Positions 6,024 through 45,503 of a stretch of DNA of 64,000 bases are shown piece after piece. The translations under genes were made by a program, and so were the position numbers. Position 1 is the stretch's first letter. Each line of letters begins with the position of its first letter. Under the pieces are notes generated by a model that saw only the letters and a list, made by a program, of their open reading frames with translations, made no database searches and was not told the origin of the DNA. The DNA lies in the NCBI RefSeq assembly GCF_000526155.1, contig NZ_JAFN01000001.1, forward strand, positions 1,120,501-1,184,500, given 5' to 3'. This DNA comes from Deferrisoma camini S3R1. GTDB lineage: Bacteria; Desulfobacterota; Deferrisomatia; Deferrisomatales; Deferrisomataceae.

Positions 6024-6265
6024 GAACTGCGGTGACGGGGGGAACTTCGGTGATGCGTGACGGGTGACGAGTGACGCGGTGAGGGCCCGGCGGCCCCTCG
6101 CCCCAACGTCCTGTCGTCCCAACGTTCCAACGGTCCTCGACCAACGATTCACGATTTACGGCAGTTCCTACGACCAACGACCCGCGGCCTTTCCCAACGA
6201 TTCACGATTCACGATTTACGATTCACGATTCACGGCCGTTTCCGATTCACGGCATTCCCGACGAC
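6024..6265. repeat. Repeat mosaic between cysD and cysN
   Basis: In order on the plus strand: GTGACGGG/GTGACGAG/GTGACGCG heptamers, CCCCAACGTCC octamers, CGACCAACGATTCACGATTTACGGCAG, a short spacer, then (GATTCAC)n running to within about 10 nt of the cysN start. Read on the minus strand this is the same block order as 8128-8305. Confidence 0.8.
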
Positions 6266-8108: not shown

Positions 8109-8310
8109 GGATCGGGGCCAAACTGCCGTGAATCGTAAATCGTGAATCGTTGGTCGAGGATCGTTGGGACGGTGGGACGGTGGGACGGTAGGACGCCGAA
8201 ATGCCTCCTAGCCTCCCAACGTTCCAGCCTTCCAGCCGACGCGAAGCGTCGACACTTGTCACCGATCACCCGTCACGCGTCACCGCCTTTCCCACTCGTC
8301 ACGGCCTTTC
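8109..8310. repeat. Complete repeat mosaic between cysN and cysQ
   Basis: A full example of the composite: AAACTGCC, (GTGAATC/GTAAATC)n, TTGGTCGAGGATCG, (TTGGGACG/GTGGGACG)n, GGACGCCGAAATGCC, (CTCCTAGC/CTCCCAAC)n, a GACGCGAAGCGTCG palindrome, then (CACCGATCACCCGTCAC)-type words. Confidence 0.85.
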
Positions 8311-8321
8311 GGAGGCATTTC

Positions 8322-9113
8322 ATGGACAACCCGAACCCCACCATCCGACTCCTGCTCGAACTCGCCGAAGCCGCGGCCGCCGAGATCCTCCGGATCTACG
8401 AAGGCGACATCCAGGTGGAGGAGAAGGGCGACCGATCCCCCCTCACCGAGGCGGACCGGGCGGCCCACCGGGTGATCGCCGAGGGCCTCGCCCGCGCCTT
8501 CCCGGACGTGCCGGTGCTGTCCGAGGAGGGCCGGGAGATCCCCTACGCGACCCGCCGGGCCTGGTCCAGGTTCTGGCTCGTCGACCCCCTGGACGGCACC
8601 AAGGAGTTCATCAAGCGAAACGGCGAGTTCACCGTGAACATCGCCCTGGTGGAGGGGGGCCGGCCCGTGCTCGGCGTCATCCACGTGCCGGTGCAGGGGC
8701 GCGTGTACTGGGGCGACGTCGCAAGCGGCGCCTGGACCCGCCAGGCCGGCGGCGAACCCCGGCCCATCCGGGTGCGCCGACCCGACCCGGCCCGGGGGCT
8801 GGTGGTGGTCCAAAGCCGCTCCCACCCCTCCCCCGAGACCGAGGCGTACCTGAAGGGTCTGCCGGTGGCCGAGAGCATCGCGGCGGGCAGCTCGCTCAAG
8901 CTCTGCGCCGTGGCCGAGGGCCGGGCCGACCTCTACCCCCGGCTGGGCCCCACCATGGAGTGGGACACCGCGGCTGGCCAGGCCATCGTGGAGGCGGCCG
9001 GCGGCCGGGTCGAGACCCTGGACGGCGAGCCCCTGCGCTACAACAAGCCCGACCTGCGAAACCCCTACTTCGTGGCGAAGGGGGCCGGGGCCGTGAATGG
9101 GAAACTGCCGTGA
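8322..9113 (+). CDS. cysQ: 3'(2'),5'-bisphosphate nucleotidase (PAP phosphatase)
   Basis: About 263 residues, inositol-monophosphatase superfamily. Removes 3'-phosphate from PAP left after sulfotransfer or PAPS reduction. TEADRAAHRVI, the metal-binding DPLDGTKEF, a GSSLKLC segment and MEWDTAAGQAIVEAAGG are all present and in order. The ATG at 8322 has GGAGG nearby and starts right after a repeat block. The last residues, GAVNGKLP, and the TGA stop come from a repeat mosaic (GGAAACTGCCGTGAATCG), so the native C-terminus has been replaced or extended. Context with cysC/D/N and a distant sulfotransferase supports PAP turnover. Confidence 0.93.
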   Translation: MDNPNPTIRLLLELAEAAAAEILRIYEGDIQVEEKGDRSPLTEADRAAHRVIAEGLARAFPDVPVLSEEGREIPYATRRAWSRFWLVDPLDGTKEFIKRNGEFTVNIALVEGGRPVLGVIHVPVQGRVYWGDVASGAWTRQAGGEPRPIRVRRPDPARGLVVVQSRSHPSPETEAYLKGLPVAESIAAGSSLKLCAVAEGRADLYPRLGPTMEWDTAAGQAIVEAAGGRVETLDGEPLRYNKPDLRNPYFVAKGAGAVNGKLP

Positions 9114-9440
9114 ATCGTGAATCGTAAATCGTTGGTCGGGGACCGTTGGGACGGTAGGACGCCGAAATGCCTTCCAGCCTCCTAGCGTTCCAGCCTCCCA
9201 GCCGACGCGAAGCGTCGACACCCGTCACCGCCAAACTGCCGTGAATCGTAAATCGTGAATCGTAGCGAGGTGGCTGGGCGGCCGGAGCCCCTGCCCCGTC
9301 AGAACGTCCGCACGTCCCACCGTCCGCGCGTCTTCCCGTCACCTGTCACGGCCGTTCCCTCCCCTCACCGATCACCTACCAGGACCCAGGCGCGCCTCTA
9401 AAACTCAAAACTTGCGTACGTCCCCTCCCCCCACGCAAGG
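9096..9440. repeat. Repeat mosaic downstream of cysQ
   Basis: Starts inside the end of cysQ. Two successive composites: ACTGCCGTGAATC heptamers, TTGGTCGGGGACCG, (TTGGGACGG), GAAATGCCTTCC, CTCCTAGC octamers, GACGCGAAGCGTCGAC, CACCCGTCACCG, then again ACTGCCGTGAATC. From about 9397 a TAAAACTCAAAACTTGCG word appears that resembles the pair at 13.58 and 13.71 kb. Confidence 0.8.
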
Positions 9441-9534: not shown

Positions 9535-9765
9535 ATGAAACGCTGGGATCGAATCACGGTGGATCCGCACATCCTCAACGGTCAGCCTTGCATTCGCGGT
9601 ATGCGCCTTACGGTACGAAGGGTTTTGGAAGCTCTCGCGGTCTCCGCCAACGTCGCGACGGTTTTCGAGGAATATCCGGAACTCGAAGAAGAAGACATCC
9701 GGCAGGCCCTTGATTTTGCGGCCCACTGCCTCACCGAACAGACCATCGACCTGGACGCGGCGTGA
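9535..9765 (+). CDS. DUF433 antitoxin
   Basis: 76 residues. DRITVDPHILNGQPCIRGMRLTV is the defining DUF433 start, followed by a winged-helix-like EEYPELEEEDIRQALDFAAHCL. DUF433 proteins pair with DUF5615 PIN-like proteins as putative TA modules; this one overlaps its DUF5615 partner by GTGA. The ATG at 9535 has GGGGAGGA 6 nt upstream. Paralogous to the gene at 31452-31688. Confidence 0.85.
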   Translation: MKRWDRITVDPHILNGQPCIRGMRLTVRRVLEALAVSANVATVFEEYPELEEEDIRQALDFAAHCLTEQTIDLDAA

Positions 9766-10133
9766 GGCGCATCCCCCTCGACCAAGGGCTCCCGCGCTCC
9801 ACGGGACGAATTCTGCGCGATCTGGGCTGGGACGCCGTCCACGTCGGAGACGTCGGGCTGGCGCGGGCAACCGACAGCGAGCTTCTCCTCGTCGCCGCCC
9901 TCGAACGGCGGGTGGTGGTGACGTTGGACGCCGACTTCCACGCCCTCTTGGCCATACGCGAGCAGGCCACCCCTTCCGTGATCCGGATTCGCCGAGAGGG
10001 TCTCGACGGTCCAGCCGTCGCCCAACTGCTGGTGTCGTGCTGGCCGAAAATCGAGCAGGCGCTAGCAGAGGGTGCCGCGGTCTCCATTACGGCAACCGCG
10101 ATCCGGATTCGCAAGCTCCCGATCGGCGGCTAA
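9762..10133 (+). CDS. DUF5615 PIN-like toxin
   Basis: 123 residues. LDQGLPRSTGRILRDLGWDAVHVGDVGLARATDSELL and VVTLDADFHALLA follow the DUF5615 pattern: a PIN-like fold with acidic residues D7, D35 or so and the DADF motif. In the usual family start the first acidic residue sits in a LLDE/LADE motif; here it is PLDQ. Probably a ribonuclease toxin by family, not proven. Starts GTG, coupled to the DUF433 gene. Confidence 0.8.
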   Translation: MRRIPLDQGLPRSTGRILRDLGWDAVHVGDVGLARATDSELLLVAALERRVVVTLDADFHALLAIREQATPSVIRIRREGLDGPAVAQLLVSCWPKIEQALAEGAAVSITATAIRIRKLPIGG

Positions 10134-11070: not shown

Positions 11071-11595
11071 ATGAGGAGCCACAAGGACCTCGCCGCGTGG
11101 AAGCTCTCTCTCGCGCTGGTCACGCGCGTGTACGCCGTGACACGCACTTTTCCCGAGGGAGAGGCCTGGGGGCTCACGGGTCAGATGCGTCGGGCCGCGG
11201 TATCGATACCTTCCAACATCGCAGAGGGTGCGGCCAGAGGTTCGCGGCGGGAGTTTTCTCGGTTTTTGAGGATGGCACTGGGCTCGGCGGCGGAACTGGA
11301 GACCCAGATATTAGTCGCGAAAAACCTGGATTACCTCGAAAACGAAAACACTTTGCTGGAGCCGCTCACCCAAATACGCAGGCTGATATCCGGCCTTCTG
11401 AAAAGTCTGGAGAGGTGTTTCAACACGAGTAGGCGTAGTTGTTGCGTCCACCTGGCACCGGGGGCTCCGAAATCCCCTACCTGCCTCCGCGTCCTCGGCA
11501 CGGACCGCGCGGCCCGCGTAGCCAGCTGCTCACGGCAGATACGGAGTTGGAGCAAGCCTTCCGTCGAGCAACCTTCTCCCGTCCAAGGGCGATAA
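11071..11595 (+). CDS. Four-helix bundle protein (23S rRNA intervening-sequence type), C-terminally extended
   Basis: 174 residues in the open frame. SHKDLAAWKLSLALVTRVYAVTRTFPEGEAWGLTGQMRRAAVSIPSNIAEGAARGSRREFSRFL and the later AELETQILVAKNLDYL are characteristic of the S23 four-helix bundle family, whose role is unknown though many lie in 23S rRNA intervening sequences or as single genes. Family members end near residue 120, at the SGLLKSLERC part here; the last 50 or so residues are Cys/Pro/Arg-rich and look like read-through into noncoding DNA, so the original stop was probably lost. Weak ribosome site. Confidence 0.75.
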   Translation: MRSHKDLAAWKLSLALVTRVYAVTRTFPEGEAWGLTGQMRRAAVSIPSNIAEGAARGSRREFSRFLRMALGSAAELETQILVAKNLDYLENENTLLEPLTQIRRLISGLLKSLERCFNTSRRSCCVHLAPGAPKSPTCLRVLGTDRAARVASCSRQIRSWSKPSVEQPSPVQGR

Positions 11596-20483: not shown

Positions 20484-20580
20484 CGGTCACGCCCCCCCAC
20501 CAAAGGTGGGGGTTTGAAAAACCGTGGACCGCTCAAAGCGGTTCAACACCGGGGGCCGCCTAAAGACGGCTACTCCGGTA
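20484..20580. repeat. IS200/IS605-type end, copy A
   Basis: Hairpins CCCCCACCAAAGGTGGGGG, CCGCTCAAAGCGG and GCCGCCTAAAGACGGC in a row. Nearly the same series recurs at 21153-21245. Confidence 0.75.
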
Positions 20581-20830
20581 GCCTTAACTGCTTAATTCTA
20601 CCATCTTCTCGCTCTTGCCGACGGATATACTCCCGGACCACCTGCTCGTCCAACCCTACCGTCGACACGTAGTACCCTCGGGCCCAAAAGCTCTGCCCCG
20701 TAAAGTTGCGTGCCCGCCCCCCATACCTCCTTGCCACGTGGTCCGGCATCAGATGCCCCTCCACCACCCGACTCTCCTTCTGCCGAGCCAATTCCCGAAT
20801 CACATCCCGCAAATCCTCTCGAATCCCGCC
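20570..20830 (-). pseudogene. tnpA: IS200/IS605 TnpA remnant with internal deletion
   Basis: IRELARQKESRVVEGHLMPDHV is the beta/HUH region of a TnpA, but it jumps directly to RRYGGRARNFTGQSFWARGYYVSTVGLDEQVVREYIRRQE, skipping about 25 residues that normally follow PDHVH. The second His of HUH is lost. The open frame continues upstream to 21163 but that part is not transposase-like. A second, different decayed TnpA in the locus. Confidence 0.8.
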
Positions 20831-21149
20831 GACGGGCGCAATCGCACCGGTCGGTACGTCGAGCGCCGAGGCGGAAGCACGCCCCGAGACGGCGTGTGAT
20901 CGGTGGTTACAGCAAAAGGCTTGGTGAAAAATCCGGGTTAGTTGATGTGAGGCACCCTCTCTTATTGGAAGGCCAAAGCATCGGGTACATCCGCCGTTCG
21001 TCCAACCACTGGGGAAACCGCGCAACCGACTGCTTCGGACTTCGGGGATCGGACTTGAGCCCCTCAGCCACGGGGGCTTCACTGTCGGACTCCCCGATTC
21101 TGAAAACACGGACAGAGCCCGTTTGGGGCAAACGGCGAATGCACCCCAA

Positions 21150-21250
21150 AGGCACTCACGCACCCATCAAAAGTGGGGGCTTGAAAAAACGTGAACCGCT
21201 TAAAGCGGTTCAACACCGGGGGCCGCCTCAAGCTGGCTACTCGGGGCAGC
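21150..21250. repeat. IS200/IS605-type end, copy B
   Basis: CGCTTAAAGCGGTTCAACACC, GGGGGCCGCCTCAAGCTGGCTACTC match copy A at 20484-20580 with a few changes, same orientation. The two direct copies bracket the tnpA remnant. 21251-21447 shows no gene. Confidence 0.75.
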
Positions 21251-28235: not shown

Positions 28236-28643
28236 TTAAGTCAGTCGCCCCCCGCTCGCCAAGCACGCCTCAGCGAGTCGTTTGTCGAGCGTGGCCAAGG
28301 GCAGGTCCCGTCGGAGGGCCAACTCAAGGTACATCCCGTCGTACACCGATAGGCCGCACTTGTCGGCCAGAGGCACCACCGCGGTGAGCACATCGTCCGG
28401 CGGAATCCGGTCAACCACGATCGGGAGCGCCGCGAGGTCTGCCGCGATCCGCCCCCAGTCACACCGGTTGATCCGCCCCCTGCGCGTCGCCACAAGAAGC
28501 ACGTTCCCCACCTCGGCCGGCCATAAAGCCGGCACGACTGCGGTGTCATCCAGGAGGCTGTCGCGCAGCCGATCCGTGGTGTCACTGGCCTCGTCGGGGA
28601 ACACCCAGGCCATCGTCACCGAGCAGTCGAGCACGAAGGGCAT
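28236..28643 (-). CDS. vapC: PIN-domain toxin (VapC)
   Basis: 135 residues. VLDCSVTMAWVFPDEAS has the first Asp, PALWPAEVGNVLL the Glu, LSVYDGMYLELALRRDLPLATLDKRLAEA the D and TLDxxL motifs. Start ATG 28643 overlaps the antitoxin stop (TGATG). Likely RNA-cleaving toxin. Confidence 0.88.
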   Translation of the reverse strand: MPFVLDCSVTMAWVFPDEASDTTDRLRDSLLDDTAVVPALWPAEVGNVLLVATRRGRINRCDWGRIAADLAALPIVVDRIPPDDVLTAVVPLADKCGLSVYDGMYLELALRRDLPLATLDKRLAEACLASGGRLT

Positions 28644-29469: not shown

Positions 29470-29883
29470 CTACGGCTCTTTCACCCGGTACACGCCGTGG
29501 TGGGCCTCGGTGTCGGCGCGGTGGGCCGCAAGGTCCGCGGCCACGGCGTCGAGCTTGCCCCCGAGATTTTTCTCGACGGCCTCGATCTTGGCGTCGAGTT
29601 TCTTCTCGACCGCGTCGATCTTTGCCTCCAGCTTCCTCTCGACGGCGTCGATCTTCGCTTCCAGCTTCTTCTCTACACCGTCGATCTTCGCGTCGAGGCG
29701 CGTTTCCACCTCGTCGACCCGCTTCGTCAGGGCTTCGAACTTGAGATCCACCAGGTCGAAACGCTCGTCCGTCCTGCGTGCGAGCGCCTGGATCTCGCTC
29801 CGGAGCACTTCGTGCCCCTCGAGAACCAGGTCGAACTTGCTTCGGATGTCTTCGAGCAGGATCTCCGGGTGGTCCTTTTCCAT
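29470..29883 (-). CDS. Small coiled-coil protein, MEKDH family, copy 3
   Basis: 137 residues. Same head (MEKDHPEILLEDIRSKFDLV) and tail (LDAVAADLAAHRADTEAHHGVYRVKEP) as copy 2, with about five AKIDAVEKKLE-type units between, so it is a length variant. ATG 29883 with GGAGG 5 nt upstream; the 3' flank (CTGTGGCCCCACGCTCC) is also shared. Unknown function. Confidence 0.75.
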   Translation of the reverse strand: MEKDHPEILLEDIRSKFDLVLEGHEVLRSEIQALARRTDERFDLVDLKFEALTKRVDEVETRLDAKIDGVEKKLEAKIDAVERKLEAKIDAVEKKLDAKIEAVEKNLGGKLDAVAADLAAHRADTEAHHGVYRVKEP

Positions 29884-29900
29884 GGGGACCTCCAAGACGG

Positions 29901-30216: not shown

Positions 30217-30660
30217 TCAGGCCACACGGCGTTTGAGGTCGCTGAGCTGGTGCTCCATGGAGGTGAGACGGTGTTCCATGTGCCGGAGCGTTCGGTCGTA
30301 CTCGTCCCGACGGACGATGGCTCGGCCCAACTCGTCCATGCGTTGGTTCAGTTGGTCGTGACGCGCCGTAAGATCGCTCCGAACGCTCTCGATCCGCTCG
30401 GTGAGCTCCGTGCGAACGTCGTCGATGCGTTTGTTGGTCTCGTCGATCCGCCGGTTCGTCTCGTTGATCCGCTCCGAGAGTTCCATACGGATCTCGTCGA
30501 TGCGGCGACTCTGGTCCGCAAGCTGGGTCTGCAAGTCCGTGAGGCGCTCGTTGGTCCCTTCCAACCGGCCCTTGACCTCGGCGATCTCGGACCGGATGGC
30601 GCTCAACTCGGGGACCACCCACTCCTGGAAGGCCTTCTTGATGATCTCGGCGATCTCCAT
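30217..30660 (-). CDS. Coiled-coil protein, EVIKKA family, copy 2
   Basis: 147 residues, paralogue of 11758-12216. Head MEIAEIIKKAFQEWVVPELSAI, tail VRRDEYDRTLRHMEHRLTSMEHQLSDLKRRVA; between them SRRIDEIRMELSERINETNRRIDETNKRIDDVRTELTERIESVRSDLT. The middle uses different 11-residue units from copy 1 and they are not identical at DNA level. No membrane or signal segment. ATG 30660 with GAGGG ribosome site. Unknown function. Confidence 0.75.
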   Translation of the reverse strand: MEIAEIIKKAFQEWVVPELSAIRSEIAEVKGRLEGTNERLTDLQTQLADQSRRIDEIRMELSERINETNRRIDETNKRIDDVRTELTERIESVRSDLTARHDQLNQRMDELGRAIVRRDEYDRTLRHMEHRLTSMEHQLSDLKRRVA

Positions 30661-34017: not shown

Positions 34018-34398
34018 CTACGGCTCTTTCACCCGGTACACGCCGTGGTGGACCTCGGTGTCGGCGCGGTGGGCCGCAAGGTCGGCGGCCACGGCGTCGA
34101 GCTTGGCTTCGAGCTTCTTCTCGACCGCGTCGATCTTTGCCTCCAGCTTCCTCTCGACGGCGTCGATCTTCGCTTCCAGCTTCTTCTCTACACCGTCGAT
34201 CTTCGCGTCGAGGCGCGTTTCCACCTCGTCGACCCGCTTCGCGAGCGCTTCGATCAGGAAGGTATTCCGTTCGACCTTCTCCTCGAGCTCCCCGAACCGC
34301 GCGTCGATCTTCCGGTCGAGAGCCGCGTAGCCCTCGATCACGAGATCGAACTTACTTCGGATGTCTTCGAGCAGGATCTCCAGGTGGTCTTTTTCCAT
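34018..34398 (-). CDS. Small coiled-coil protein, MEKDH family, copy 4
   Basis: 126 residues. Head MEKDHLEILLEDIRSKFDLV, then a different second block (IEGYAALDRKIDARFGELEEKVERNTFLIEALAKRVDEVETRL) and about four AKIDAVEKKLE units, tail LDAVAADLAAHRADTEVHHGVYRVKEP. So the paralogues recombine or diverge in blocks as well as repeat number. ATG 34398 with GGAGG. Unknown function. Confidence 0.75.
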   Translation of the reverse strand: MEKDHLEILLEDIRSKFDLVIEGYAALDRKIDARFGELEEKVERNTFLIEALAKRVDEVETRLDAKIDGVEKKLEAKIDAVERKLEAKIDAVEKKLEAKLDAVAADLAAHRADTEVHHGVYRVKEP

Positions 34399-34849
34399 GG
34401 GGACCTCCAGGACGCTTCGCGTCCGCTGGGCGGCTGGGAGGCTGGGCCGTCACCCCGTCACCGATCACCCGTCACGGCCAAACTGCCGTAAATCGTAAAT
34501 CGTAAATCGTGAATCGTAAATCGTTGGGACGCTAGGACGCTGGAACGCTGGGACGGTAGGACGCGAAGCGTCGACACCGATCACTCGTTACCGGTCACCG
34601 TGTCACTGCCCTTCCCACCCGTCACCGCCAAACTTCCGTAAATCGTGAATCGTAAATCGTGAATGGTTGGAAAAGCCGCGGGTCGTTCGTGCTTCGTCGT
34701 TGGTGGAGGGGCATCACCTGTCACGGCCTTTCCGCCTCCCAGCCTCCTAGCTTCCTAGCTTTCCAGCGGCCCGCGTGGCGGGCCATCTGTGTCCATCTGT
34801 GTGGATCTGGGGCGAAAGACGTTGGGTCGTAGAGACGCGAAGACGCCGC
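34399..34849. repeat. Repeat mosaic including the 235-bp repeat, copy 1
   Basis: 34399-34500 repeats the 5' flank of MEKDH copy 2 (GACGCTTCGCGTCCGCTGGG ... CACCGATCACCCGTCACGG ... CTGCCGTAAATCG). 34575-34809 is a 235-bp block found again at 42598-42832 with one mismatch. It ends with GGCCATCTGTGTCCATCTG, CACAGAT-family words. Confidence 0.92.
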
Positions 34850-36256: not shown

Positions 36257-36429
36257 GGGGGTCTCCGTTGGGTCGGGGACTGCCGTGAATCGTGAATCGT
36301 AAATGGTTGGGAAGACCGTGGGTCGTTCGTCGAAGGTCGTTCGTGGTGTCAACTGCCGTCGGTCGCAGGTCGTTTGTCGTTGGTCGTTGGACCGCTACCA
36401 CCTACGACCTACGACCGGCGACTCACGAC
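36257..36429. repeat. Repeat mosaic of GGTCGTT heptamers
   Basis: CTGCCGTGAATCGTGAATCGTAAATGG, then GGTCGTTCGTCGAAGGTCGTTCG, GGTCGCAGGTCGTTTGTCGTTGGTCG, then inverted ACCTACGACCTACGACC up to and inside the tsaB stop. The tsaB end codons (GVGRGS) and TAG lie within this array. Confidence 0.8.
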
Positions 36430-37131
36430 CTACGACCCGCGACCTACGCCCCTCCTCTCCTCCGCTTCGCTGCGCCGCAGGTACCGGGGGGTGAGGGCGT
36501 CGGGGGGCTCGGCCGAGCCGGCTCGCCAGCGCTGCCAGCCCAGCAGGGCCACCCGGGCCGGGGGCACGGTCCACAGGTCCTCGGGCGCCTCGTGGTAGCG
36601 GTCGCCCAGGCACGAGCGCAGGGCCTCCCGGTACGGGGCCACCCCGGCTCCCAGGGCCAGGACCGGCCGGCCGGTCTCCGCCAGGGCCCGGCCGAACTCC
36701 GACGGGTCCCAGGCCGCCTCGTCCAGGACCCGCCGGCCCGTTTCGCCGTCCCAGGCGCCGGCGTACACCTGCCGCTTCTTGGCGTCGAGCACGGGCGCCA
36801 CCAGTCCCGGCCACGGCCCGGCCCGGCCGGCCAGGGCCGCCAGGCTCGACACCCCCACCACCGGGATCCCCAGGGCCACGGCCAGGCCCTTGGCCGTGGC
36901 CACCCCCACCCGCACCCCGGTGAACGCGCCCGGGCCCGCGGTCACGGCCAGGGCCGCCAGGTCGCCCCGGCCGACCCCGGCCGCGGCCAGGGCCGCCTCC
37001 ACCAGGGCCAGGATCCGCCGGGACTGGCGGGGGGCCGAGGCCTCCACCGTCTCGCACCGAACGCGCCCCTCCACCACCACGGCCGCGCCGGCCGTGCGCT
37101 CCGAGGTGTCCAGGCCCAGGACCGCGTTCAT
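36430..37131 (-). CDS. tsaB: tRNA threonylcarbamoyladenosine biosynthesis protein TsaB
   Basis: 233 residues. MNAVLGLDTSERTAGAAVV, SRRILALVEAALAAAGV, GPGAFTGVRVGVATAKGLAVALGIPVVGVSSLAALA and APVLDAKKRQVYAGAW are the TsaB/YeaZ signatures; it scaffolds TsaD and TsaE in t6A37 tRNA modification. Usual length about 220-235. The last residues GVGRGS and TAG stop derive from the GGTCGTAG array. The start overlaps the rseP stop (ATGA). Last gene of the operon frr/uppS-cdsA-dxr-rseP-tsaB. Confidence 0.93.
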   Translation of the reverse strand: MNAVLGLDTSERTAGAAVVVEGRVRCETVEASAPRQSRRILALVEAALAAAGVGRGDLAALAVTAGPGAFTGVRVGVATAKGLAVALGIPVVGVSSLAALAGRAGPWPGLVAPVLDAKKRQVYAGAWDGETGRRVLDEAAWDPSEFGRALAETGRPVLALGAGVAPYREALRSCLGDRYHEAPEDLWTVPPARVALLGWQRWRAGSAEPPDALTPRYLRRSEAEERRGVGRGS

Positions 37132-41487: not shown

Positions 41488-41733
41488 TTAACTGCCGTGA
41501 ATCGTGAATGGTGAATCGTGAATCGTTGGGGGGCGCTTCGCGTGCGCCTGAGTTTCGGCTCGGATCCGGCCACACACGCGTGGGCGACAAGACCGGTTGG
41601 GGTCAGGGGCCGCCGGCCGGCCAACCCCGAATCCTGGGAAGTGATCGCGAATGCTGGAGTGGCAGTACAATCCCGCGTTACCGGCTTCCGACCATTCGCG
41701 ATTCACGATTTACGATTCACGATTTCCGGCCCC
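41488..41733. repeat. Repeat mosaic between pyrH and frr
   Basis: CTGCCGTGAATCGTGAATGGTGAATCGTGAATCG, then about 150 nt of less repetitive sequence, and (GCGATTCACGATTTACGATTCACGATTT) up to the pyrH stop. Two oppositely oriented heptamer arrays bracket the spacer. Confidence 0.8.
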
Positions 41734-42489: not shown

Positions 42490-42860
42490 ACGTGATCACT
42501 ACCGTTGGTCGTTCGTCGTTGGTCGAAATTTCCGTGAATCGTGAATGGTGAATCGTAAATCGTGAATCGTGGCTGGGCGACGGGGCCGTCACCGCGTCAC
42601 CGATCACTCGTTACCGGTCACCGCGTCACTGCCCTTCCCACCCGTCACCGCCAAACTTCCGTAAATCGTGAATCGTAAATCGTGAATGGTTGGAAAAGCC
42701 GCGGGTCGTTCGTGCTTCGTCGTTGGTGGAGGGGCATCACCTGTCACGGCCTTTCCGCCTCCCAGCCTCCTAGCTTCCTAGCTTTCCAGCGGCCCGCGTG
42801 GCGGGCCATCTGTGTCCATCTGTGTGGATCTGTGGCTGAAGAGGTTCGGACGCCGGGCGG
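42490..42860. repeat. Repeat mosaic including the 235-bp repeat, copy 2
   Basis: Begins GTTGGTCGTTCGTCGTTGGTCG and GTGAATCGTGAATGGTGAATCG; 42598-42832 matches 34575-34809 (one C/T difference at 42624/34601). Lies between tsf and pyrH. Confidence 0.92.
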
Positions 42861-43604: not shown

Positions 43605-43700
43605 TCGGCTAGAAAGCTAGAATGCTAGGAGGCTGGAAACCCCTTTGTCTCTAGTTTCCAGTCTCCAGTATCTGGTCTCTGCCCGGCCGGAGGCAGGCTC
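43605..43700. repeat. Short repeat mosaic
   Basis: GCTAGAAAGCTAGAATGCTAGGAGGCTGG octamers, then CTCTAGTTTCCAGTCTCCAGTATCTGGTCTC of the (GTCTCTA) family. The word family recurs at 50370, 57895 and 59440. Confidence 0.75.
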
Positions 43701-43761
43701 CTTGCCCCGCCCTCCGAGGTGACGCGCCGATCTTGTCGCCGTGTTAACAAGATTTCGACAA

Positions 43762-44744: not shown

Positions 44745-44905
44745 GACAATGGCGGGAGGGCTGGGAAGCTAGGAGGCTAGGAGGCTAGGAGGCTGGGAGG
44801 CTGGGAGGCTGGGAGGCTGTCTGGCTCTCCTGCGGCCCGTCCAGCGGACACGAGGCCTCCCGACGATTCACGATTCACGATTCACGATTCACGGAAACAA
44901 TCCCC
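44745..44905. repeat. Repeat mosaic upstream of PII gene
   Basis: (GCTAGGAGGCTAGGAG / GCTGGGAGGCTGGGAG)n, at least eight octamers at 44760-44820, then GACGATTCACGATTCACG heptamers to 44893. It fills the divergent spacer between rpsB and the PII gene. Confidence 0.85.
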
Positions 44906-44919
44906 CGAGGAGGCCGACC

Positions 44920-45261
44920 ATGAAGATGATCCAGGCCATCGTGAACACCGACCGGCTCGACGAGCTGCGGGACCGGCTGTTCGAGATCGGGGCCCCCGGC
45001 CTCACGGTCGACAGCGTGATGGGCATCGGCAAGCCCCTGGGCCAGATGCGCTACTCCGACAGCCGGGGGTTCGTGCCCAAGTTCTTCGCCAAGAGCCGGG
45101 TCCAGATCGTGGCCGAGGACGACCGGGTGGACGAGATCGTGGAGGCCGTGCGCACCGTGTGTCACACCGGCCAGATCGGCGACGGCAAGATCTTCGTGCT
45201 GCCGGTGGACGAGGTGGTCCGGATCCGCACCAACGAGCGGGGCAGCAGGGCGCTGTACTGA
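44920..45261 (+). CDS. PII-family nitrogen regulatory protein
   Basis: 113 residues. MKMIQAIVNTDRLDELRDRLFEIGAPGLTVDSV, PKFFAKSRVQIVAEDDRVDEIVEAVRTVCHTGQIGDGKIFVLPVDEVVRIRTNERGSRALY has the PII C-terminal signature (TGQIGDGKIFVxPVxxVVRIRTxE). The T-loop reads GQMRYSDSRGFV and has no YRG, so the usual uridylylated Tyr51 seems missing. ATG 44920 with GAGGAGG. No ammonium transporter or glutamine synthetase adjoins, so the target is open. Confidence 0.9.
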   Translation: MKMIQAIVNTDRLDELRDRLFEIGAPGLTVDSVMGIGKPLGQMRYSDSRGFVPKFFAKSRVQIVAEDDRVDEIVEAVRTVCHTGQIGDGKIFVLPVDEVVRIRTNERGSRALY

Positions 45262-45350
45262 GGGCCGGGGGTCGGTGCTCGTTCGTCGTGGGTCGTGTGA
45301 TACCGAGTTGCATCCAGAACTATTGGCCCCCTGCCCGAAGGGGCAAGGGG

Positions 45351-45503
45351 CCCGTCGGAGAGCCGGGCGCGGCTCCCTAGCTCGCCGCGCAGCGCCTCTG
45401 ACGCTCGGACCGCGAAAGGGTTCGGATTCCACTGAGCTGCCAGGAAACCAGCTCTTCGGTCCCGTGCCTGCGCGGCGAATCTCAAGCCTGGCTTCGCGCC
45501 CGG
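45351..45503. repeat. Dispersed structured element, copy 1
   Basis: Contains TAGCTCGCCGCGCAGCGCCTC and, 85 nt later, GTGCCTGCGCGGCGAATCTC, so TCGCCGCGCAG pairs with CTGCGCGGCGA. The same series, including CGCGGCTCC and GGCTTCGCGC, recurs at 55354-55502. The rest of 45262-45602 shows no gene; GGTCGGTGCTCGTTCGTCG words sit at 45270. Confidence 0.75.

Follow-up and report, generated by a model that had tools for sequence, protein, structure and literature searches.

The cysQ gene of this genome ends inside a short tandem array of heptamers, which raises the question of whether the orientation of such an array decides if it is neutral within a gene or works as a translation stop. The initial annotation of this DNA had proposed such a role, noting that (GATTCAC)n is open in every reading frame and that its complement, (GTGAATC)n, contains TGA in all frames. 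The arithmetic is right: since 7 and 3 are coprime, TGA recurs once per 21 nt in each frame of the closed (stop-bearing) orientation, and the same argument is valid for any heptamer with one stop triplet in one orientation. We addressed the question in a window of 64,000 nucleotides (positions 1120501-1184500 of the 4.24 Mb single-contig genome; window GC 66%), in a larger sample of the same genome and in congeners.

Arrays at cysQ and in neighbouring spacers

The array sequence at 9096-9135 is ..GCCGTGAATGGGAAACTGCCGTGAATCGTGAATCGTAAATCG.., as first described. The features of this locus and the comparable arrays beside other genes of the window are the following.

8322-9113, + strand: cysQ, start approximate, assigned by a Pfam match to Inositol_P (E 9.2e-57) and the gene call
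9103-9111, + strand: header AACTGCCGT, located before the CGTGAAT array
9109-9129, + strand: (CGTGAAT)2 CGTAAAT array spanning the end of cysQ, closed, outward from cysQ
9169-9203, + strand: octamer array of the GCCTCCCA type (GGCTGGGA on the - strand), in the cysQ-side spacer, polarity opposite
9240-9260, + strand: second CGTRAAT array of the cysQ-side spacer, with its own AACTGCCGT header at 9234-9242
8127-8147, + strand: closed, outward CGTRAAT array lying 18 bp past the native cysNC stop (8108)
6197-6234, - strand: outward-pointing CGTRAAT array in front of cysNC, open when read with the gene
41701-41721, - strand: array 12 bp past the native stop of pyrH, closed, outward
41496-41523, + strand: outward-pointing array 24 bp upstream of frr (a gene of the - strand), open when read with the gene
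44863-44893, - strand: array upstream of the P-II gene (44920-45261, + strand), outward, open in the gene's sense

The stop codon of cysQ (TGA, 9111-9113) lies inside the first CGTGAAT unit, and the in-frame end reads ..GAVNGKLP*, so the closed array does supply both GKLP and the stop, as annotated. The C-terminus and TGA of cysNC are conserved across three congeners; pyrH likewise keeps its TGA, with a tail nearly unchanged in congeners. Exact (CGTRAAT)x3 occurs 24 times in the window and not once in 50 mononucleotide shuffles, and a genome-wide search for (GATTCAC)x3 with up to 3 mismatches returned 148 matches, compared with 0 for a backwards-read control. A known RNA family was rejected as the identity of the repeats, since an Rfam search of the window matched no RNA family.

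The spacers hold additional elements. A 10-base unit (CCATCTGTGT / ATCTGTGTGG, e.g. GGATCTGTGGC) forms a further short-unit family at 34783-34802, 42806-42834 and elsewhere. Small ORFs of the 23S rRNA intervening-sequence, PIN and DUF5615 families lie among the arrays (11071-11595, 28236-28643 and 9762-10133), and related coiled-coil ORFs with 33-bp internal repeats cluster between arrays (29470-29895, 30217-30660 and 34018-34398). Each of two same-genus genomes carries a dispersed repeat of ~180 bp (window ~45326-45503), for which more than 60 copies at 81-92% identity are counted with the two genomes taken together; in copies of this repeat, the next ~67 bp match window ~43681-43747.

Array orientation at gene ends

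Orientation relative to gene ends was tabulated over 1.56 Mb, 37% of the genome, made up of the window and 76 stretches. Sixty of these were spread evenly in parts of the genome and 16 were added at known CGTRAAT arrays; the targeted stretches enrich the sample in array density, while orientation is unselected. Genes were predicted with a purpose-built small Markov-model caller (1292 genes, 84% coding), which gives approximate starts and, for the chosen frames, exact 3′ ends. Two congeners contributed a congener sample of 0.25 Mb.

The sample contains 68 CGTRAAT arrays, counts of which are not fully independent because arrays in adjacent spacers share ancestry. For arrays no more than 50 bp from a 3′ end, the closed:open ratio was 14:1 (p 0.001), a strong bias of the kind for which the initial annotation had proposed a test. 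Within 50 bp of a 5′ end, the ratio was 0:18 (p 8e-6). Taken together, these ratios indicate that CGTGAAT reads away from the gene at both ends. Counted by half-spacer over all families, outward and inward arms stood at 170:27, with the outward excess present in co-directional, convergent and divergent arrangements and in all four gene contexts. Upstream of starts, the ratio for the stop-bearing orientation was 0:30 arms. The 5′-end polarity was also found in the two congeners (CGTRAAT 8:0, CGT[TC]GGT 10:0).

Most arrays lie outside genes, with 214 of the 223 period-7 runs in the sample not mostly genic. The header AACTKCSGT has 106 occurrences between genes and 13 inside them, with an outward:inward ratio of 59:2 at 5′ ends, and is common to CGTRAAT and GGTCGTNGGT arrays. 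A header common to several heptamer families indicates that these families are variants of one polar module. Outward orientation is not universal at 3′ ends, where polarity is weak in some families; for CGT[TC]GGT, half-spacer polarity there was 35:24.

Arrays over gene tails

Stop codons lie inside arrays in 18 of about 1290 called genes, 8 of them in CTAG arrays. In the window, tsaB provides a second case after cysQ, and the initial reading of its end, that a GGTCGTA-type array supplies GVGRGS and TAG, was confirmed on the - strand.

36395-36448, - strand: GGTCGTA-type heptamer array spanning the end of tsaB
36430-36432, - strand: TAG stop of tsaB, supplied by the array

In three congeners, tsaB ends in EERRGVGRGS*, EERRAERLGG* and EERKARRLGS*, in each case six residues and a TAG past EERR/EERK. 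The TAG comes from a GTCGTAG heptamer in one congener and from GCTAGGAG octamers in the other two, at the same residue position. The cysQ tails of three congeners (AGAVNGKLP*, AWAPGDPGA* and AVNRKLP*) are array-like; the cysQ of another genus in the family has no array at its end. These sequence differences show that arrays overwrote the tails of tsaB and cysQ, with the available in-frame stop taken. A second asparagine synthetase gene (G000:754034-755884, L185) ends inside a CGTRAAT array (..GCCGTGAATCGTAAGTCG|TGA), and past the end of that array an S23/IVP-like small ORF lies between arrays.

Arrays inside genes

The asnB gene lies on the - strand, with its ATG at window 599, and extends left beyond the window. 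Its insert, described in the initial annotation as being in the open orientation, does sit inside an open frame.

357-473 (boundaries approximate), - strand: in-frame insert in a loop of the glutaminase domain of asnB, octamers and ATTCACG heptamers, 39 residues
371-403, + strand: CGTRAAT heptamers within asnB (gene on the - strand), 12 residues in the gene
429-459, + strand: octamer array within asnB, the insert's other arm, gene reading ALGGWEAGKLGSP

The insert is located between GYFV and VGLGHRRLS. Three congeners carry inserts in this same loop, each with octamers followed by C-rich heptamers or octamers that differ per congener and are in frame in all three. The insert is missing from most compared AsnB proteins of other genera, one of which (L218) has a longer, unrelated-looking loop at the insert site. 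A glycosyltransferase of the same genome carries 12 residues of ATTCACG units in the same frame as in asnB; in two congeners this gene has GTGACGG and CGTCCCAA units instead. In both proteins, the loop that carries the insert is thus the same in all three congeners; the units differ among them, and the layout is mostly two-armed and convergent.

The glycosyltransferase array of GTGACGG units in these two congeners is in the closed orientation (GTG ACG GGT GAC GGG TCA CGG), and the sole unit with an in-frame TGA carries TCA in its place. This substitution provides direct evidence, from one case, that stop content is filtered inside genes, and that closed orientation alone is no bar to an array. 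A scan for in-gene arrays returned only the glycosyltransferase (G000, and the G002 copy) and one weak match at 450917; it missed asnB because the caller placed the asnB start too late. The in-gene ATTCACG arrays of the two genes are both open, too small a sample for a test of orientation.

Stop content and polarity

Several of these observations fit a model in which closed arrays are selected as translation terminators at 3′ ends, open ones being neutral in genes: the 14:1 excess of closed CGTRAAT arrays at 3′ ends, the 18 genes with an array-supplied stop, and the open orientation of both in-gene ATTCACG arrays. Arrays of the CTAG families, with TAG on both strands, likewise occur more often at 3′ than at 5′ ends. 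To this extent the proposal is partly supported; the view that stop content is the basis of orientation is not, as the following controls show.

The CGT[TC]GGT family (CGTTGGT, CGTCGGT), stop-free on both strands, showed an outward:inward ratio of 73:2 at 5′ ends. Within 30 bp of 3′ ends, stop-free CGTTGGT was outward in 8:0 and stop-free GCTGGGA octamers in 20:3, and CGTCGGT had no polarity at 3′ ends (10:10 within 60 bp). CTAGARA, with TAG on both strands, was polar at 16:0 within 60 bp of 3′ ends in each of two unit forms. The bias is therefore neither restricted to stop-bearing units nor stronger in them, since stop-free units and units with stops on both strands are also polar. Moreover, of the 15 CGTRAAT arrays found no further than 50 bp from a 3′ end, 13 lie past the native stop, and these still run 12:1. 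A single base separates GCTAG from GCTGG octamers and decides whether TAG is present; TAG was not enriched at 3′ ends in this pair, with GCTAG:GCTGG at 27:35 arms (3′) versus 52:65 (5′). Stop-free families avoid genes as strongly (CGTCGGT 0/26 and GGTCGTT 1/24 in genes). Polarity is also stricter at 5′ ends, where the question of terminating the adjacent gene does not arise, and the congener glycosyltransferase tolerates a closed array after a single base change.

Together, the stop-free controls, the arrays past native stops and the TAG comparison lead us to reject stop-driven orientation, and the stop codon within an array is probably a by-product of the unit sequence. Avoidance of start codons upstream of genes was likewise rejected as the cause of polarity, because CGTCGGT, which lacks ATG, GTG and TTG, is equally strict. 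CTAG-family arrays may have a modest gene-ending role, given that they are commoner at 3′ ends and account for 8 of the 18 array-supplied stops.

Turnover between congeners

Spacers with arrays had a median identity of 0.61 between species (39 orthologous spacers), compared with 0.92 for array-free spacers (18; p 0.0002). Congener genes are ~93-96% identical, while the unit family and length of the spacers change. Of the 49 arms with arrays in both species, 30 had matching families and 19 did not. Direction was kept in 44 of these arms; among the 19 family swaps, it was kept in 14 and flipped in 5. Direction therefore follows the site more than the unit. It is conceivable, as a tentative reading, that a directional process repeatedly rewrites the same sites in spacers, gene tails and conserved proteins, swapping the unit and keeping the direction. 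If so, the repeat-made in-frame peptides and stop codons of congeners would differ at the same place.

Proposed explanation

Based on these data, we consider it probable that the 9096-9135 array forms the part nearest the gene in a polar, rewritten spacer module, and that stop content filters where an array is tolerated and does not set its orientation. Each module has a short header, which is AACTKCSGT in several families, and behind it degenerate 7-/8-base tandem units; modules of this kind fill the intergenic DNA of the genus, pointing outward from genes on both sides of a spacer. Their polarity, header and turnover between species are directly observed. Probably the many similar modules are copied and recombine with one another while arrays undergo slippage, and selection would remove whatever harms a gene. 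Where a module spreads over a gene tail, as in cysQ and tsaB, the first in-frame stop, of any family, would become the stop of the gene; within genes such as asnB and the glycosyltransferase, only in-frame, stop-free versions would survive. Stop content would then act as a filter on where arrays are tolerated, with orientation set independently of it. On this view, ending a protein is an occasional accident of the repeats and not their purpose. Against this explanation we count the weak 3′ polarity of some families, the 3′ excess of CTAG arrays and the five swaps that flipped direction, and also that no transposase, integration site or target duplication has been linked to the modules.

Alternative explanations

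Polarity could also arise at the RNA level, if G-poor leaders freed the ribosome site and outgoing transcripts met G-rich repeats recognised by a protein or polymerase. Consistent with such a role, polarity is strictest within 60 bp upstream of start codons, and the resulting sense leader is pyrimidine-rich. However, the convergent layout is also found in the asnB and glycosyltransferase inserts, where there is neither leader nor trailer, and CGTCGGT, with no SD-like or start-like triplets, matches the other units in strictness (35:0 over the 60 bp next to 5′ ends). We therefore regard an RNA-level cause as unlikely.

Spacer arms might instead be kept as inverted repeats that act as a terminator, RNA stabiliser or cruciform, like REP/BIME elements. 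The convergent layout resembles inverted repeats, convergent pairs were noted by Rehm et al. (PMC4692102), and small GC hairpins with TTCG-type loops often occur in mid-spacer. Yet the two arms share a unit family in only 9 of 40 spacers (10.8 +/- 2.6 expected by chance), and pairing is no better for cognate arms than for arms taken from different spacers (p 0.38). Neither family sharing nor duplex energy supports hairpin selection between arms, which makes this a quite improbable account.

We give little credence to the idea that the modules are REP elements in heptamer form and that a Y1 transposase (REP-associated or IS200/IS605-like) moves them. The genome does contain twelve Y1_Tnp matches, five of them in frames of at least 330 aa and possibly REP-associated, the window itself holds one degraded Y1 copy (20570-21163), and the modules have a fixed header and direction. 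The header found is AACTKCSGT and not GTAG/GGAG. A GTAG/GGAG-headed hairpin was not defined, and no module was found tied to a transposase gene. Selection of closed arrays for translation termination is, by the controls given above, largely refuted as the cause of polarity and highly improbable.

Comparison with known systems

Intergenic heptamer repeats in bacteria have earlier been read as suppliers of stop codons, as quadruplexes or as translation signals. In this genome, one-way-stop, both-way-stop and stop-free units lie side by side, all with a common direction. Polarity is thereby uncoupled from stop content, and neither stop codons nor quadruplexes are likely to be its general cause. 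Rickettsia palindromic elements are dispersed repeats that are tolerated in frame within protein genes. The present modules resemble them in their in-frame genic copies; unlike them, they consist of tandem units, are mostly intergenic and change content at the same site between species.

The closest parallel in orientation concerns GGGAATC in Xanthomonas and GGGGA(C/T)T in Nostoc, which lie on the non-coding strand at 5′ ends and on the coding strand at 3′ ends (Rehm et al. 2015, PMC4692102). Near 3′ ends, stop-codon overlap was included (PMC4692102). As in the present genome, those heptamers form intergenic arrays of 2 to many units, with convergent pairs and rare genic copies (PMC4692102). 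The strand rule, applied within 50 bp, holds for CGTRAAT at 14:1 and 18:0, and GGGAATC, one base from GTGAATC, is stop-free on both strands. Unlike the Xanthomonas and Nostoc repeats, the arrays described here belong to many 7-/8-base families with one polarity, several with a common header; they change family at the same site between congeners, and two genes carry in-frame copies. The Xanthomonas and Nostoc kind is further marked by a preference for four units and by G-tracts able to form quadruplexes. The GGG tracts needed for a quadruplex are absent from CGTRAAT, CGTTGGT, CGTCGGT and most other units here, so quadruplex formation is not a general cause.

The coding logic of the initial annotation also has a precedent. 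In Beggiatoaceae, TAACTGA has stops in all frames one way and is open (LSVISYQ) the other way; the author argued that forward copies can only end ORFs, and that reverse copies lie inside or at the edges of ORFs (MacGregor 2015, PMC4679880). There, TAACTGA is the sole repeat and lies just upstream of starts in the forward orientation (PMC4679880), whereas many families point outward at both gene ends in the present genome. Geobacter metallireducens has genome-dispersed four-unit tandem heptamers and octamers, some in opposite-strand pairs (PMC2700814). These have other units and occur both within and between genes, and orientation at gene ends is not among the features reported in the available portion of that paper (PMC2700814).

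Thus, the idea of a stop in one direction (PMC4679880) and outward polarity (PMC4692102) were already known; the present genome adds the mix of families, the header, the same-site swaps and the in-gene copies. The replacement of units at the same sites between congeners, including sites in proteins, constitutes a natural experiment on what writes the arrays.
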